DNA of 64,000 nucleotides from Monilinia fructicola (lineage: Eukaryota > Ascomycota > Leotiomycetes > Helotiales > Sclerotiniaceae): positions 2,514,501 to 2,578,500 of the forward strand of contig VICG01000007.1 of the NCBI GenBank assembly GCA_008692225.1, written 5' to 3'. The notes beneath the pieces were generated by a model. That model worked only from the letters and a program-made list of their open reading frames with translations, was not told the DNA's origin and searched no databases. Below, piece by piece: positions 5,201 to 60,153 of this stretch. Both the position numbers and the translations under genes were made by a program. Numbering within the stretch: position 1 is the first letter of the stretch; each line of letters opens with the position of its first letter.

Positions 5201-5634
5201 AATTAGAATCTAATAAAATCAAATATTTATTTCAAAATACTCAATATAAATATTCTATTAATAAATAAATTATAAAAATAGAAATTATTTATAGAAAAAT
5301 AAATATAAACAATCCTAATAAAATTATTGAAAGTATTTAGTATTCTATAAATATACACTTTTATATTAATATTTAAAAAAACAACAAAAAAAGAGATTTA
5401 CTAATTATAAAACTATTTTGTATCTGTTGATTAGCAATCGCAGAAAATAAGATTTTCAGATTATAAACTGGAAGATTCTTTTTTCTTTTATATAATATTA
5501 ATTTATTAAATTGATTAAATTGATTATTAAACTATATATAATTATAATATTCATAAGAGCTAGCTTAAACCCCTAATTATTACCTTGTTCAATATTTTAT
5601 TATTATTATTATTTAAGAATATTTATAAATTATA
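2201..5634. other. AT desert, no gene
   Basis: Nearly pure A/T with scattered TATA-rich and TAA-rich runs. Reading both strands I saw no recognisable coding motif; short open frames rich in I, L, F, N and K are expected by chance at this composition. It is probably one or more RIP-destroyed transposons, but I cannot name them. Confidence 0.6.
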
Positions 5635-6160
5635 TTTAACTTTTAATATTTTTAATATTTTTATTCTTTTATTTGTTATTTGAATAATTTGAATCAATGT
5701 AATAAAATTAATCGTAATTATAATCTTAATAATATCTATAATATCTATTGTTTTTACTATTTCAATAATTTTAATACCTTTAATACTTTGAATAATCTTA
5801 ATAATCTTAATAATCTTAATAATCTTAATAATCTTAATAATCTTAATAATTTTAATAATATTAATAATATTGATAATATCAAAAATTTTAATAATTTTAA
5901 TAATTTTAATAATTTTAATAATTTTAATAATTTTAATAATTTTAATAATTTTAATAATTTTAATAATTTTAATAATTTTAATAATTTTAATAATTTTTAA
6001 TAATTTTAATAATTTTAATAATTTTAATAATTTTGATAATATTAATAGTTTCAATAATCTTAATAGTTTTAATAGTTTTGATAGTTTTACTCTTTTTAGT
6101 TGTTTTAATTTTTTAAGTTTTTTTTATTATTTAAGTTCTTTGAATTTCTTTGATTCTTAG
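5635..6160. repeat. 9-bp minisatellite (AATAATTTT)n with degenerate edges
   Basis: The core at about 5785-6050 repeats AATAATTTT, with variants AATAATCTT and AATAGTTTT. Since 9 is divisible by 3, it opens frames coding for Asn-Asn-Phe repeats on the plus strand and Lys-Ile-Ile repeats on the minus strand. One extra T near 5995 shifts the phase. Periodicity weakens outward into TTTGATAGTTTTAC-like units. No start context, intron or neighbour suggests that either frame is a real protein. Confidence 0.85.
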
Positions 6161-6169
6161 ATCACTTCA

Positions 6170-6320
6170 AATTTCTTTAATATTTTTACTTCTTTCGATT
6201 CCTTTTACTCTTTTAATTATCTCTATTCCTTTGATTCTTTTAATTATTTTAATTCTTTCGATTCTTTAATTCTTTCGACTCTTTTAATTCTTTTGATTCT
6301 TTGAATTTTTTTAATTCAAC
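6170..6320. repeat. Degenerate TTCTTTYRATTC-type array
   Basis: Units resembling ATTCTTTTAATT and ATTCTTTCGATT recur at 6190-6310. It continues the neighbouring 9-bp array but with a looser unit of about 10 to 18 bp. It keeps some CpG (TTTCGATTC, TTTCGACTC), so it is less RIP-mutated than its surroundings. Confidence 0.55.
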
Positions 6321-7885: not shown

Positions 7886-8599
7886 TTTATTCCTTAACAA
7901 CTAAAGGTTTTATAAACTTGAAAAATTATATATTTAGAAAGCATATAATCTATAAAATATAATTATTTATTTTAATATTATTTTATATATTGCTCTAATT
8001 TATAATGTTATTAAAATGTAAATATACACTTTTGCTCAAGTTTCTATGTTCCTATATAAACGTTACGTAGTTTTTCTAGACCAATCAGCTTCTAGTTAAT
8101 GAGACGTTTTAGAATATGTAACTTATATAGATTTAATACTATAGTAATATTAAATCAATTTAAAAAAGGTAATTTAAAAGAGAAAAAACTTAAAGGAATA
8201 ATTTATTTAATTATTATAGAAATTGTTTATTTAAAGATTAGAGTAATTTTTTATTAAAATAGAAAAAGTCGAATATATATACCCCTTAGTATTTTATATA
8301 ATCTTCTTAATAATTAATCAGCTAAAAAGATATTTATTAAATCAAATAATTTAATAATTCGAATTATAAGCCTTTATATTAAATTTATGGATTCGAAGAA
8401 TCTTAGTTCATCAATTTGTTGTGTGTCATGTGATTATTATACCTGTACTATAGGAGGTTCAAAATGCAAAAACATAAACCTTAAATCCTTAGCGGCTTGT
8501 GTGATTGGTTATAAGTAAACAGCGAAAATTTTGATTGGTCGAGCATTAGTAAGCGAAAAACCTTAATTTTTTGATGCCGACTTTCCGTTCTACCTTCGG

Positions 8600-8745
8600 A
8601 GCTTAATTATTCCGATCATTTCGGCCCATTCCATTTCAGCCTATTCCATTTCAGCCCATTCCATTTCGGCCCATTCCATTTCGGCCATTTCATTTCATTC
8701 CATTTCGGCCATTCCATTCCGCGTATTTCATATGGACCTATTTTA
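8600..8745 (+). repeat. 15-bp minisatellite CCATTTCGGCCCATT (composite copy 1)
   Basis: Units such as CATTCCATTTCGGCC and CATTCCATTTCAGCC repeat with a period of 13 to 15 bp. Copies with the same unit, more heavily mutated, are at 17,990-18,515 and, reversed, at 59,480-59,695. Because 15 is divisible by 3, the reverse copy opens a frame of pentapeptide repeats (FGLFH-like). I see no reason to call it a gene. Confidence 0.85.
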
Positions 8746-8920
8746 TTTCGAAATAATAAATAAAATAATAAATAAAATAATAAATAATAAATAATAAATA
8801 ATAAATAATAAATAATAAATAATAAATAATAAATAATAAATAATAAATAATAAATAATAAATAATAAATAATAAATAATAATAAATAATAAATAATAAAT
8901 AATAAATAAAAAATAAAAAA
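8746..8920 (+). repeat. (AAATAAT)n array
   Basis: Seven-base units AAATAAT, starting as the longer AAATAATAAAT, repeat over about 170 bp. The equivalent TTATTTA array in the reverse copy is at 59,100-59,450. Purely A/T, so RIP cannot be judged. Confidence 0.9.
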
Positions 8921-9097
8921 GATATAAAAATAAAAAGAGATATAAAAATATAATATAATATTATTAATATATTTTAATATAGAAATATAATTAAATAAGA
9001 TATATATTTATATATAAGAGTATTTTATATTAGAATTGATAAAGTAGAAAATAAATATATAATAGTAAAGGATTTTAAAAATAATTTCTTTCTTTAA

Positions 9098-9205
<108 letters not shown>

Positions 9206-9208
9206 CAA

Positions 9209-9367
9209 TACTAGCACTCGCGGAAAATAAATTTTTAGATTATGGATTCGTAGAATTTTATTAGCCTCGAACAAAGTGAGGATTGGGGGTTTGGGGGCTA
9301 GCCCCCATTAAGTAATAAAATTCGAAGAATCCATAGTCTGAAAATTTATTTTCCGCGAGTGCTAGTA
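9209..9367 (+). mobile_element. Hairpin MITE, copy 1 (159 bp, near-perfect palindrome)
   Basis: It begins TACTAGCACTCGCGG and ends CCGCGAGTGCTAGTA. The two arms of about 55 bp pair almost fully (AAATAAATTTTTAGATTATGG against CCATAGTCTGAAAATTTATTT). The loop holds GCCTCGAACAAAGTGAGG and a second small palindrome, GGGGGCTAGCCCCC. TA at both ends may be a target duplication as in Tc1/mariner-type elements. It codes for nothing and is almost free of RIP despite lying in RIP-mutated DNA, as expected for an element below the RIP length limit. Other copies: 40,867 and 58,516. Confidence 0.88.
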
Positions 9368-15625: not shown

Positions 15626-17925
15626 TATCTATTTTAATAAAATTAATAAAAATTTTTTTTAAGAAAGAGATTAAATGATTATTTGAAGTATAATAAGTTT
15701 TTTTAAAAATTTAATCGTATTTAAATAAATTCAGCAAGAAATTGAAAAGTTAAAGAATTAATTCTTTTTGGTATAAATTGATTAAGTGTGCCGCGAGTAA
15801 TGGTTACAACTCTTATAATTCAAGAAATGTATTAAGATCTTAATAAAGAATTTTTATTACTTATATATTTTTTTAAGTCTTTAATTGTTTTTTATTTTAT
15901 TTTATAGGTTATATATTATATCAATGGCTTTAATTCTTCTAGGATTTATAATATTACAATTTAATCATTTTAATACTTATTTTAATTCTCTAAATTATAT
16001 TATAAAATATAGATATAATAAAACCAGTTAAAAATCATATTTATATATATATATATATATAGTACTAATATAAATATCAATATAAAATTTTTTATTAATA
16101 TCAATTGAAAGAAATAAAATTATATAACAATTTTTAAACATTATAAAATAATAGAGAATAAATATAATCTTTACTAAGAAGTCTAAACCTACTATTAAAT
16201 CTATTTAAATATTAATCATTTCCAAAACTGCGATATAATCTTTTATTTTCCATTTAGAAAAATAACGTTTTAATTAATAACATTTATAATTAATATTAAT
16301 ATTAATTTTCTATAAATATATAATGCTTTGATCATTAATACAATAATTAAAAAAAGTTAATATTAAATCTCTATAATAAATAATTGTTTAATATTTAAAT
16401 AATATTAATAAAGCTTCCTATAGTGAATTTATATAGTTTTTCTACCTCTGTTTCAGATTATAAAATCTATTCTCGTCACTTGGTTTTATATTTTTCTAAT
16501 TCGGAAACATAATTTAAAAAAACAAAATCTTATTAAAAGCTATTTAAAATCTAGAAGAAAATTTATTTAAATAGTTTTTTAAACTTTTGATTGTATATAT
16601 TTAAATTCAATTCTTTTTATAACTTTATATTAAGTTTATTCAAACTGAATTATAAGAATTAATATTTTTCAAATTTTTTATATAAAAATAATATAATAAT
16701 TAAATTATTCAAAATCTATATTGTTAAAATCTATTTTTCTTTTAAGGAAATAAACAATATACAGTTTTTAATAAATCTCTTAATAAATTATTATTTTTAA
16801 AATAAGTTTATTTGCTTAAATATTCACTTCTATATCTTATTATAATAAATTTTTCCACTATTATATAATTTGAACTATTTTTAATAATCTAAATAAAGAT
16901 ATCAAATTAAGTAAAAAGTTGCAAATTAATGAATCATTTTTGAATTTAATTACTTTTTATGATTTCATTTAGAAGAAATGTATTTAAGAATTTCTCGTTT
17001 TTATTTTTCAAAAAAGAATAAGATATAGAGATATAAGAAAAAATATTAAAACTCAAAATAGTTGAATATTTAAGAATTCAAAAAAAAAGTTTTGTTTTTA
17101 AACTATTATTAAAACAGAATTTATTAGTCTTATAAATTCGAGTAAAACGAACAAAAAAAAACAAAAGATTTTAAAATTAATAATTTAATAAGTAATAACT
17201 ATAAATGATTTATTTTTTAATATTGATATTTCAATTAATAGTTTTATAATTAAAATCAAATTTTTAAATTAAATTATTAATTAGTGAAAATTAAAGTTAA
17301 TAAATACCTTTAGTATAATTAATAAAATAAATTTATTATATCAAAACTATAAACTTACAATTGTATAAATTTAGACAAAAATTCTATATAAAGTTTTTAT
17401 TGTATTTTAAGTTGTAATTAAGTAATTTTGAGGATTTTAGTAAAAATAAGATTTTTCGCAGCTTTCAAATATTTAATTTATTTCTAGAATATTTAATACT
17501 CCTTAGAATTCTAATTTAATAAAACCACTTTATCTTTTTAAAGTTAATTAATATATATATATCGTTTTAAGGATACCAATTGTTTTATTTGATAAATTAT
17601 ACAATTAAACAAATAATACTATTATTTATATTAATCTAAATTGATTTTTAATAATTTCGATTTAGTCAAGTTATTATTTATACTAACAGATATATAATTT
17701 GAAATCGTTAACATATTTGAGAATACAAGATCTAAATATTTATATCGGTAAATTATTCTCATACTATGAAAAATCGAAAAAATTACTTTTATACTATAAA
17801 AATCAAAGTGATTTTACTATAATGCTATAAAGATTCTAGCTTTTTTTTAATTAAATTCTAAATTAGATTTCATTTAAAAAAACTAAAATCTAAATAATGA
17901 ATTATAAATTTTTAAAATCTAGTAT
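15626..17925. other. AT desert, no gene
   Basis: No gene seen. The stretch at 17,560-17,700 resembles the right part of the GTAATAACCTCG element (AATACTATTATTTATATTAATC), so another decayed copy is likely there. Confidence 0.5.
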
Positions 17926-17929
17926 TTTC

Positions 17930-18520
17930 ATTGATCGATTATTAATAAGTAAAAAAGCTTTAATTTTCTGTTTTACTTTTGAAACTTAATTATTCTAATC
18001 ATTTTAAAGGTAATTAAGTATTTTAGCTATTTCGAAGGTAATCAACTATTTTCAATTATTTCGAAGGTGATTAATCACTTTAATCTTTTTATTTTAACCT
18101 TTTTATTTTAATTATTTTATTCTTGATTTTTTTATTCTAACTATTTCATTTTAGCTTTTTTATTTTAATTATTTTATTCCGAACTTTTTTATTCTAGTTA
18201 TTCTGTTTTAGCTTTTCCATTTTAATTATTTCATTCTGGTTATTTCATTTTAACTATTTCATTTTTAGTTATTCCATTCTGGTTATTCCATTCCCAATCT
18301 TTTCATTTTAGCTATTCCATTTCGGTTCTTTTATTTTAACCATTTTATTTTTAACTCTTTTATTTTAACTATTCTATTTTAGCCCTTTTATTCTAGCTAT
18401 TTTATTCCCGATTTTTTCATTTTAACTATTTCATTTTAGCCCTTCCATTCTAACCATTCTATTCCTAACTTTTCTATTTTAGCTATTTTATTTTGATTAT
18501 TTTAGTCTAACTTTTTTATT
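17930..18520 (+). repeat. Degraded composite-repeat copy with an expanded 15-bp minisatellite
   Basis: The start (GATCGATTATTAATAAGTAAAAAAG) matches the end of the conserved arm at 8540, and about 530 bp of units such as TATTTCATTTTAGCT, TTATTTTAACCAT and TATTCCATTTCGG follow. It ends TTTTATTTTGAAATAATA like copy 1 but lacks the AAATAAT array, the TTA tract and the hairpin. RIP has turned most GGCC cores into AGCC, AACC or AATT. Confidence 0.75.
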
Positions 18521-18878
18521 TTGAAATAATATAACTATTAATTTATTAATATAAAAAATCTATTATAAAACCCTAGATTCTATAATTTTTAAATAAAATC
18601 TAATTTAGATTCTATTGAAAAAGTATAGAATCTATATAATATTATAATAAAATAAATCTAATTTTTGTAGTATAAGAGTAATTTTTTCGATTTTTTATAA
18701 TATGAAAGTAATTAACCATATTTATATTTATATTATATATTCATAAACATATAAAAAAATATTATAATAAAATAATTTTAAAGTTTAAAATTTTTCCTAA
18801 TTCTAAGGAAATTCTATTCTTAGAATTATAACTTCTAAATTTTATTCAAATAACACAAAAAACTATATAGTTTATAAT

Positions 18879-40305: not shown

Positions 40306-40864
<559 letters not shown>

Positions 40865-40866
40865 GA

Positions 40867-41024
40867 TACTAGCACTCGCGGAAAATAAATTTTTAGATTA
40901 TGAATTCGTACAATTTTATTAGCCTCGAACAAAGTGAGGATTGGGGGTTTGGGGTCTAGCCCCCATTAAGTAATAAAATTCGAAGAATCCATAGTCTAAA
41001 AAGTTATTTTCCGCGAGTGCTAGT
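40867..41024 (+). mobile_element. Hairpin MITE, copy 2 (158 bp)
   Basis: Same sequence and orientation as the copy at 9209, with the TTA-type tract on the same (left) side. It starts TACTAGCACTCGCGG and ends CCGCGAGTGCTAGT. The right TA is changed to TC. The central GGGGGCTAGCCCCC has become GGGGTCTAGCCCCC. Here the hairpin and tract occur without the arm, minisatellite and AAATAAT parts of the larger composite. Confidence 0.88.
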
Positions 41025-58515: not shown

Positions 58516-58673
58516 TACTAGCACTCGCGGAAAATAAATTTTCAGACTATGGATTCTTCGAATTTTATTACTTAATGGGGGCTAGCCCCCAAACCCCAAT
58601 CCTTACTTCGTTCGAGGCTAATAAAATTCTACGAATCCATAATCTAAAAATTTATTTTCCGCGAGTGCTAGTA
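58516..58673 (-). mobile_element. Hairpin MITE, copy 3 (158 bp)
   Basis: Same palindrome as copies 1 and 2, in reverse. It starts TACTAGCACTCGCGG and ends CCGCGAGTGCTAGTA. The trinucleotide tract lies to the right, which is the same side of the element as in the other two copies once orientation is considered. Confidence 0.88.
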
Positions 58674-59085
<412 letters not shown>

Positions 59086-59099
59086 ATTAATTAATAATT

Positions 59100-59450
59100 T
59101 ATTTTATTATTTTATTATTTATCATTTATTATTTATTATTTATCATTTATTATTTATTATTTATTATTAATTATTTATTATTTATTATTTATCATTTATT
59201 ATTTATTATTATTATTATTAATTATTTATATTTATTATTTATTATTTATTATTTATTATTTATTATTTATTATTTATTATTATTATTATATTTATTATTA
59301 TTATTTATTATTTATTATTTATTATTTATTATTTATTATTTATTATTTATTATTATTATTTATTATTTATTATTTATCATTTATCATTTATTATTTATCA
59401 TTTATCATTTATTATTTATTATTTATTATTATATTATTATTATTTACTAA
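59100..59450. repeat. (TTATTTA)n array with TTATCATTTA variants
   Basis: Seven-base units TTATTTA, sometimes TCATTTA, with short TTATTATTA inserts. It is the counterpart of the array at 8746-8920, roughly twice as long. Confidence 0.85.
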
Positions 59451-59479
59451 TTACTATTTACTATTTAGAAATAAAATAA

Positions 59480-59695
59480 GCCTATATAGAATAACTGGAA
59501 TGGTATGGACGAAATGGAATGGGCCGAAATAAAATGGCCAAAATGGAATAGCCGAAATGAAATGGTCCGAAATGGAATATAGGCTGAAATGGAATAAGCC
59601 GAAATGAAATAGGCCGAAATAAAATAAGCTGAAATAAAATAGCCAAAATGGAATAGGCCAAAATGAAATAGGTTGAAATAAAATGATTGATTTTT
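59480..59695 (-). repeat. 15-bp minisatellite (composite copy 2)
   Basis: On the minus strand, units such as TTCATTTCGGCCTAT and TCCATTTTGGCTAT repeat about 14 times. It corresponds to 8600-8745 and 17,990-18,515. Confidence 0.85.
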
Positions 59696-60153
59696 TTTCG
59701 CAACAGCTGGAATAATTTAGCTCCGAAGCAAAACGAAATATCGACATTAAAAATTAAGGTTTTTTATTTATTAATGTTCAACCAATTAAAATTTTCACTA
59801 TTTACTTATAACCAATCACATAAACCGCTAAGAATTTAAGGTTTATATTTTTGCATTTTGAACCTCCTATAGTATAAATATAATAATTATATAATATAAC
59901 AAATTAATAAACTAAGATTCTTCGAATCTATTAAAGTTATTTTATTATTTTAAAAAGGTTAAGATTTTAATACTTTTAAACTTTGATTTATAATTACAGT
60001 ATAGTTATTATATTTCAATTAATTAAACCTTAATTATAAATAAATCGTTAATAAAATTATAATATACCAAAATTATAAAGAATTATATTAAAATTTGAAA
60101 GAGTTATATTAATATTTATTTTGTATATGCCTTTTTAAAGACACGCTCGAGTA

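Follow-up and report, generated by a model that had tools for sequence, protein, structure and literature searches.

How does a simple (TTA)n microsatellite come to lie always on the same side of a long palindrome? The question is raised by a 64-kb window of Monilinia fructicola DNA from contig 7 (2,514,501-2,578,500), by which we mean the whole stretch that was analysed. Its GC content is 19.9%, and the available text of a transposon survey of this species gives 17.1% for RIP-affected regions (PMC8959702). The window contains three near-perfect palindromes of about 155 bp, each extending from CTAG to CTAG: copy 1 at 9211-9365 and copy 2 at 40869-41023, both on the forward strand, and copy 3 at 58518-58671 on the reverse strand. 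Their arms are 85-93% complementary over 56-61 bp. Each palindrome is accompanied by a tract, which is (TTA)35 at 9100-9205 for copy 1 and (TTA)141 at 40442-40864 for copy 2 (both on the forward strand with a 100% match) and a TTA/TAA tract with a 96% match at 58675-59098 on the reverse strand for copy 3. The orientation of each palindrome was set from its asymmetric loop and the side of the TTA tract was read relative to that loop. Read in this way, all three copies bear out the observation of the earlier note that the tract is always on the same side of a near-perfect palindrome. As a single strand, the copy 1 palindrome is predicted to fold with an energy of -55.1 kcal/mol, compared with a mean of -13.4 and a standard deviation of 2.5 for 200 shuffled sequences, and the predicted fold is a single long hairpin, the loop of which forms two sub-hairpins.

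The family was followed through the genome, which comprises 44.03 Mb in 20 contigs. A loop pattern, with up to 3 mismatches allowed, produced 110 matches (56 forward and 54 reverse; control 0), and the side of the tract was determined for the 100 of these loops that were listed, from flanks of 200 bp towards the tract and 60 bp away from it. The median identity of these 100 palindromes to their majority sequence is 97.8%. On the proximal side, 94 of the 100 listed loops have a TTA-type run of at least 12 bp within 60 bp. Only two have such a run within 60 bp on the distal side, and both of these also have a proximal one; in random 60-bp stretches of the window the frequency is 2.9%. Among the six exceptions, a run (30 and 135 bp) lies farther out but inside 200 bp in two, and is missing from the whole 200 bp in four; judged by eye, the palindrome is shortened in at least two of the six. 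When longer flanks are considered, a tract is present in 48 of 50 palindromes, and it ranges from 15 to 587 bp with a median of 151. In many copies the tract is preceded by the same conserved sequence. The constant side therefore implies that the tract belongs to the element, which is one of the two possibilities raised in the earlier note, and its position between conserved element sequence and the palindrome agrees with this. The same note had named many tractless copies, or tracts on either side at random, as evidence to the contrary, and the one-sidedness of 94 of the 100 listed palindromes genome-wide speaks against both. Across 65 pairs of the palindrome arms, 86 distinct sequences show 7 two-sided changes, a covariation that is uninformative because the copies are too alike. 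An exact 25-base arm pattern had no match in viral and prokaryotic collections, as expected for a fungal element.

The element had been taken to be 159 bp long. In fact the palindrome forms the 3' end of a longer unit, of about 0.8-2.2 kb, whose termini are fixed, 5'-(T)GGATTCGAAGAATC...GTGCTAG(T)-3'. In the 5' to 3' direction this unit consists of GGATTCGAAGAATC, a block of about 200 bp that falls into two subfamilies, a minisatellite of the CATTTCGGCC type, AAATAAT heptamers (followed in some copies by additional arrays), an AT-rich stretch whose end resembles TAAAGGATTTTAAAAATAATTTCTTTCTTAA, the (TTA)n tract and the palindrome ending in CTAG. Copy 1 occupies 8388-9365 on the forward strand, reading T-GGATTCGAAGAATC...GTGCTAG between A8387 and T9366, so that the interval 9209-9367 given earlier places the palindrome correctly while representing just the 3' end of the true unit. 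In this copy a 5' terminal hairpin, GATTC-GAA-GAATC, lies at 8389-8402, the CATTTCGGCCCATTC-type minisatellite at 8617-8718 and the AAATAAT array at 8751-8934, all on the forward strand. Copy 3 occupies 58518-59930 on the reverse strand, with its 5' end (AGATTCGAAGAATC) at 59916-59929, its minisatellite at 59510-59684 and its heptamer array, which reads TTTATTA on the forward strand, at 59103-59467. In copy 2 the tract and palindrome alone were recognised, and the sequence 5' of the tract has no match to the element. A further copy on the forward strand is represented by its 5' end (AGATTCGAAGAATCAACC...) at 2004-2195, with an approximate right limit, and no tract or palindrome was recognised downstream of it. 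Copy 1 contains only two reading frames of more than 40 aa, of 43 and 88 aa, and the longer is largely a translated array.

The association of the two ends was examined with a 37-base stretch of the 5' block, which occurs 62 times in the genome. A listed palindrome is found 0.62-2.06 kb downstream on the same strand of 47 of these blocks, while an opposite-strand palindrome lies within 12 kb of only 2 of the 62. Of the remaining blocks, 14 are unpaired, and for one more the next palindrome, at a distance of 7.2 kb, is part of a different copy. In two of the 14 unpaired blocks a palindrome or arm outside the 100 listed loops lies in the right place (C4:2831254 and C6:169243), and diverged arms were seen in 4 of the 8 unpaired blocks that were examined.

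Where does this unit insert? With the count limited to 5' ends carrying no more than 2 substitutions, and one of 36 rows excluded because it proved to be a palindrome arm, TNAT precedes 33 of 35 recognisable ends, compared with 6.7% of background positions. At the other end, a T directly follows the terminal CTAG in 99 of the 100 listed palindromes; the distal dinucleotide in this set is TA in 68, TT in 25, TC in 6 and CA in 1, and a TA is also present on the proximal flank. Paralogous empty sites were sought by BLAST of joined flanks with dust on, requiring at least 35 bp on each side, more than 72% identity and a GC content above 0.10. Judged from 24 of 88 matches, a few of which contain small gaps close to the junction, such sites exist for at least 3 of 31 elements (L029, L010 and L034/L035), and the whole unit is cleanly missing from them. 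The empty site retains one of the two flanking Ts and nothing more, with no target duplication. Since the 5' unit, the tract and the palindrome are all absent from these sites, the three must have moved together in those copies. Insertion of the unit thus takes place at TNA|T and leaves no target duplication, a 1-bp duplication of the T being indistinguishable from a T owned by the element; the shared T may belong to the 5' or the 3' end, an ambiguity that according to the available text exists for FoHeli as well (PMC5148889). For a fourth copy, at locus L024 in a (ATTATAAT)n stretch, inspection by eye indicates that the repeat period is kept under the same insertion rule.

These features invite comparison with Helitrons, as far as these are described in the source texts available. 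FoHeli1 and FoHeli2 of Fusarium oxysporum are non-canonical Helitron2 elements which start with a T followed by a short stem, its GAA loop and the stem's complement, insert after TNAT (the next base is T in a figure legend and A in the text) and contain an inverted repeat at a distance of 38-51 bp from the 3' end (PMC5148889). The Monilinia element resembles them in its 5'-T and short stem with a GAA loop, in an inverted repeat near the 3' end, in its insertion at TNAT without target duplication and in its non-autonomous copies, which are reported for FoHeli as well (PMC5148889). The FoHelis differ in ending in ATTTT with a short hairpin 38-51 bp inside, whereas here a 155-bp palindrome runs up to CTAG, and also in being about 5-6 kb long and encoding RepHel, for which a weak search found no counterpart in this genome. 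The words microsatellite and tandem repeat are absent from the main text of the FoHeli paper (PMC5148889). By definition, a Helitron2 has a hairpin at each end and asymmetric inverted repeats, 8-15 bp in length (PMC3627910). At the 5' end the inverted repeat is placed 0-2 bp from the terminus and forms a hairpin (PMC3627910, PMC5148889), an arrangement present here as T-GGATTC-GAA-GAATC, in which the GGATTC of the copy 1 hairpin doubles as half of the asymmetric repeat. This repeat, TGGATTC/GAATCCA, is 7 bp long inside the element (8 with the flanking A), a borderline length for Helitron2, and GAATCCA ends 32 nt from the CTAG terminus. In place of a short 3' hairpin, the 3' end including the inverted repeat forms one 155-bp palindrome.

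Non-autonomous Helentrons of mites and of Drosophila, HINE and DINE-1, are likewise non-coding and abundant and have a 3' palindrome and internal microsatellites or central repeats; the mite HINE elements also have palindromic subTIRs, with microsatellites or tandem repeats in some copies (PMC4067079). As described in the available text, they differ in that their 3' palindrome is only 5-10 bp long and lies 8-35 bp from the end, and in a TT or T-rich target with variable terminal Ts (PMC4067079). Canonical Helitron1 elements share insertion at A|T without duplication and a 3' CTRR (CTAG here), although the Monilinia element starts with TG rather than TC, possesses a 5' hairpin and lacks the short hairpin 10-12 nt inside the 3' end (PMC5148889, PMC3627910). 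The ends of the element therefore combine Helitron1 traits (A|T and CTAG-3') with Helitron2 traits (a 5' hairpin and an asymmetric inverted repeat), and, as judged from sequence, the closest known systems would appear to be FoHeli1/2 and HINE/DINE-1. It had been suggested that no named fungal element has this structure. For the 155-bp 3' palindrome this still holds among the elements compared, while the 5' GAA hairpin and TNAT target do find a match in the described parts of FoHeli1/2 (PMC5148889). No earlier description of the family was recognised in the literature searched, which does not prove its absence from print, and the M. fructicola transposon survey does not use the word helitron in its main text (PMC8959702).

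We conclude that the family is very probably a high-copy (about 100), non-autonomous transposon of the Helitron, or rolling-circle, type. A RepHel transposase acting in trans would nick the 5' end, one strand would be peeled off and copied with the palindrome serving as the 3' terminator, and a single-stranded or circular intermediate would reinsert at an AT step. The (TTA)n tract would be carried along, its length being altered by slippage, and the side of the tract is constant because the tract is internal to the element. The tract is thus internal cargo beside the element's 3' end.

Several observations do not sit easily with this conclusion. Searches with the RepHel profiles PF14214 and PF20209 revealed no candidate, with the caveat that the control genomes were silent too, and a search with PF05970 identified only two loci, with frames that resemble what we take to be host Pif1-type helicases. 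A second gene for a Pif1-like helicase, at L062 (C10:157300-157764), has a frame of 772 aa, the N-terminal domain of which is presumably of the RNase H1 type. The available text of the transposon survey counts only 9 transposable elements of at least 500 bp with TE domains in M. fructicola (PMC8959702), a paucity in line with the loss of a partner. Further, the 7-bp inverted repeat falls short of the 8-15 bp of Helitron2, a palindrome of 155 bp that reaches the terminus is unlike the short 3' hairpin of described Helitrons, and although GATTC-GAA-GAATC is the minimum-energy fold at the 5' end, the 61-nt region around it folds no better than shuffled sequences (z 0.25).

The last difficulty concerns copies that lack the palindrome. 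A pattern taken from just 5' of the tract has 63 matches in the genome (35 forward and 28 reverse; control 0), and the palindrome accompanies 53 of them, 41 through the loop list and the others by reading further loci (4, and 8 of another 15). In the remaining 10 (3, and 7 of the 15) no palindrome was found within the 1 kb or up to about 3 kb inspected. Eight of these 10 retain the tract, with a longest run of 19-115 units. A different repeat starts at the tract in two (L139 and L149), and in six of the 63 (L127, L130, L132, L135, L137 and L145) the tract runs straight into other sequence. These six, which count against the Helitron explanation, may have lost the palindrome by deletion, may stem from insertion events that stopped at the tract, or may reflect additional nested insertions. 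One could also imagine a separate Helitron lineage with hybrid ends and the 155-bp palindrome as its terminator, in which stalling at the palindrome would resize the array at each copying and failures would yield the palindrome-less copies; we regard this more specific version as rather unlikely.

Other kinds of element fare worse than a Helitron. A short conserved target on the left, a hairpin at each end and the lack of duplication might also describe another hairpin-ended single-strand transposon, akin to IS200/IS605 with its one-tyrosine transposase, inserting at a short fixed target, and the failure to find RepHel (PF14214 and PF20209, with silent controls) would suit such an element. We know of no IS200/IS605-like elements in fungi. 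The available description of FoHeli1/2 includes both the 5' hairpin design and the TNAT target (PMC5148889), which argues against this explanation and makes it improbable in our view.

It is more doubtful still that the palindrome alone is the mobile unit, a foldback MITE of the Tc1/mariner type that duplicates TA and inserts beside TTA microsatellites. Near-perfect inverted repeats are typical of foldback MITEs, and the TA on the proximal side of the palindrome, matched by a distal TA in 68 of the 100 listed copies, is what such an element would leave. Against this, the distal TT, TC and CA of the other listed copies agree poorly with TA duplication, and no target duplication is found at the empty sites, where a 1-bp duplication of T would look like a T owned by the element. 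The distal flanks vary among copies while the proximal neighbour is conserved element sequence. A stand-alone palindrome is also disfavoured by the constant side of the tract in 94 of the 100 listed loops and by empty sites that lack 5' unit, tract and palindrome alike.

Least credible is a SINE- or LINE-like retroelement with a (TTA)n tail and a secondarily acquired palindrome, which would account for a tract of variable length close to the 3' end, for the six copies that end at the tract and for some 5'-truncated copies, but which is disfavoured by three empty sites without target duplication, by the predominance of full 5' ends (33 of 35 after TNAT, with only recognisable ends counted) and by the lack of a Pol III-type RNA head in copy 1, where ARAGORN reported no tRNA and Rfam nothing above threshold (best E 0.17, taken as chance).

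The family demonstrates how a microsatellite can keep to one side of an inverted repeat, namely because both belong to one mobile element. It also extends the Helitron-like elements by a family whose 3' terminal palindrome is very long and whose end signatures are mixed, and such ends escape a rule based on 5'-TC and a short 3' hairpin. The presence of palindrome-bearing and palindrome-less copies in the same genome makes the role of the palindrome as a terminator testable.

Some properties of the tract and of its surroundings deserve mention. Of 19 tracts that consist of several runs, 15 have their longest run nearer the palindrome (p=0.02), a weak hint of growth on that side; tract length and palindrome identity are not correlated (Spearman 0.19, p=0.19). 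By eye, the tract at L023 (C10:1231245) contains a solo-LTR-like insertion, and that at L018/L070 (C3:2853829) a short element that appears to be LTR-bounded, with a direct repeat of about 105 bp at its borders. Such insertions inside the tract can mimic a tract of other origin. At L003/L069 (C8, about 2234600-2238100) one element is apparently nested in another in the opposite orientation.

Across 34 copies, RIP-type changes affect 26 of 306 CpA-type sites in the palindrome and 91 of 733 in the 5' block; we do not claim a lower load in the palindrome as a rule because the loci were selected by their palindrome or arm match. In copy 3, the 5' block is changed at 12 of 22 CpA-type sites and 16 of 47 other G/C sites, and the palindrome at 1 of 9 and 0 of 52, respectively.

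Other repeats are present in the window. A probable old relic of a related palindrome lies at 5430-5600 on the reverse strand, with one arm matching at 88% over 33 bp and the rest recognised by eye. It is followed by a short TTA run and then by 9-bp arrays, ATTTTAATA and TTTTAATTC, at 5759-6317, and together these perhaps represent an older related family with the same layout and a different array unit. At 17733-18732, two 100-nt arms that are 82% complementary (17747-17846 and 18618-18717) surround a minisatellite at 18079-18522, and the copy at C3:2663308 has matches to this region in its right flank. Finally, L014 (C7:2337696-2338017) contains a direct tandem of two palindromes, whose identity to copy 1 is 99% for the first and 94% for the second.
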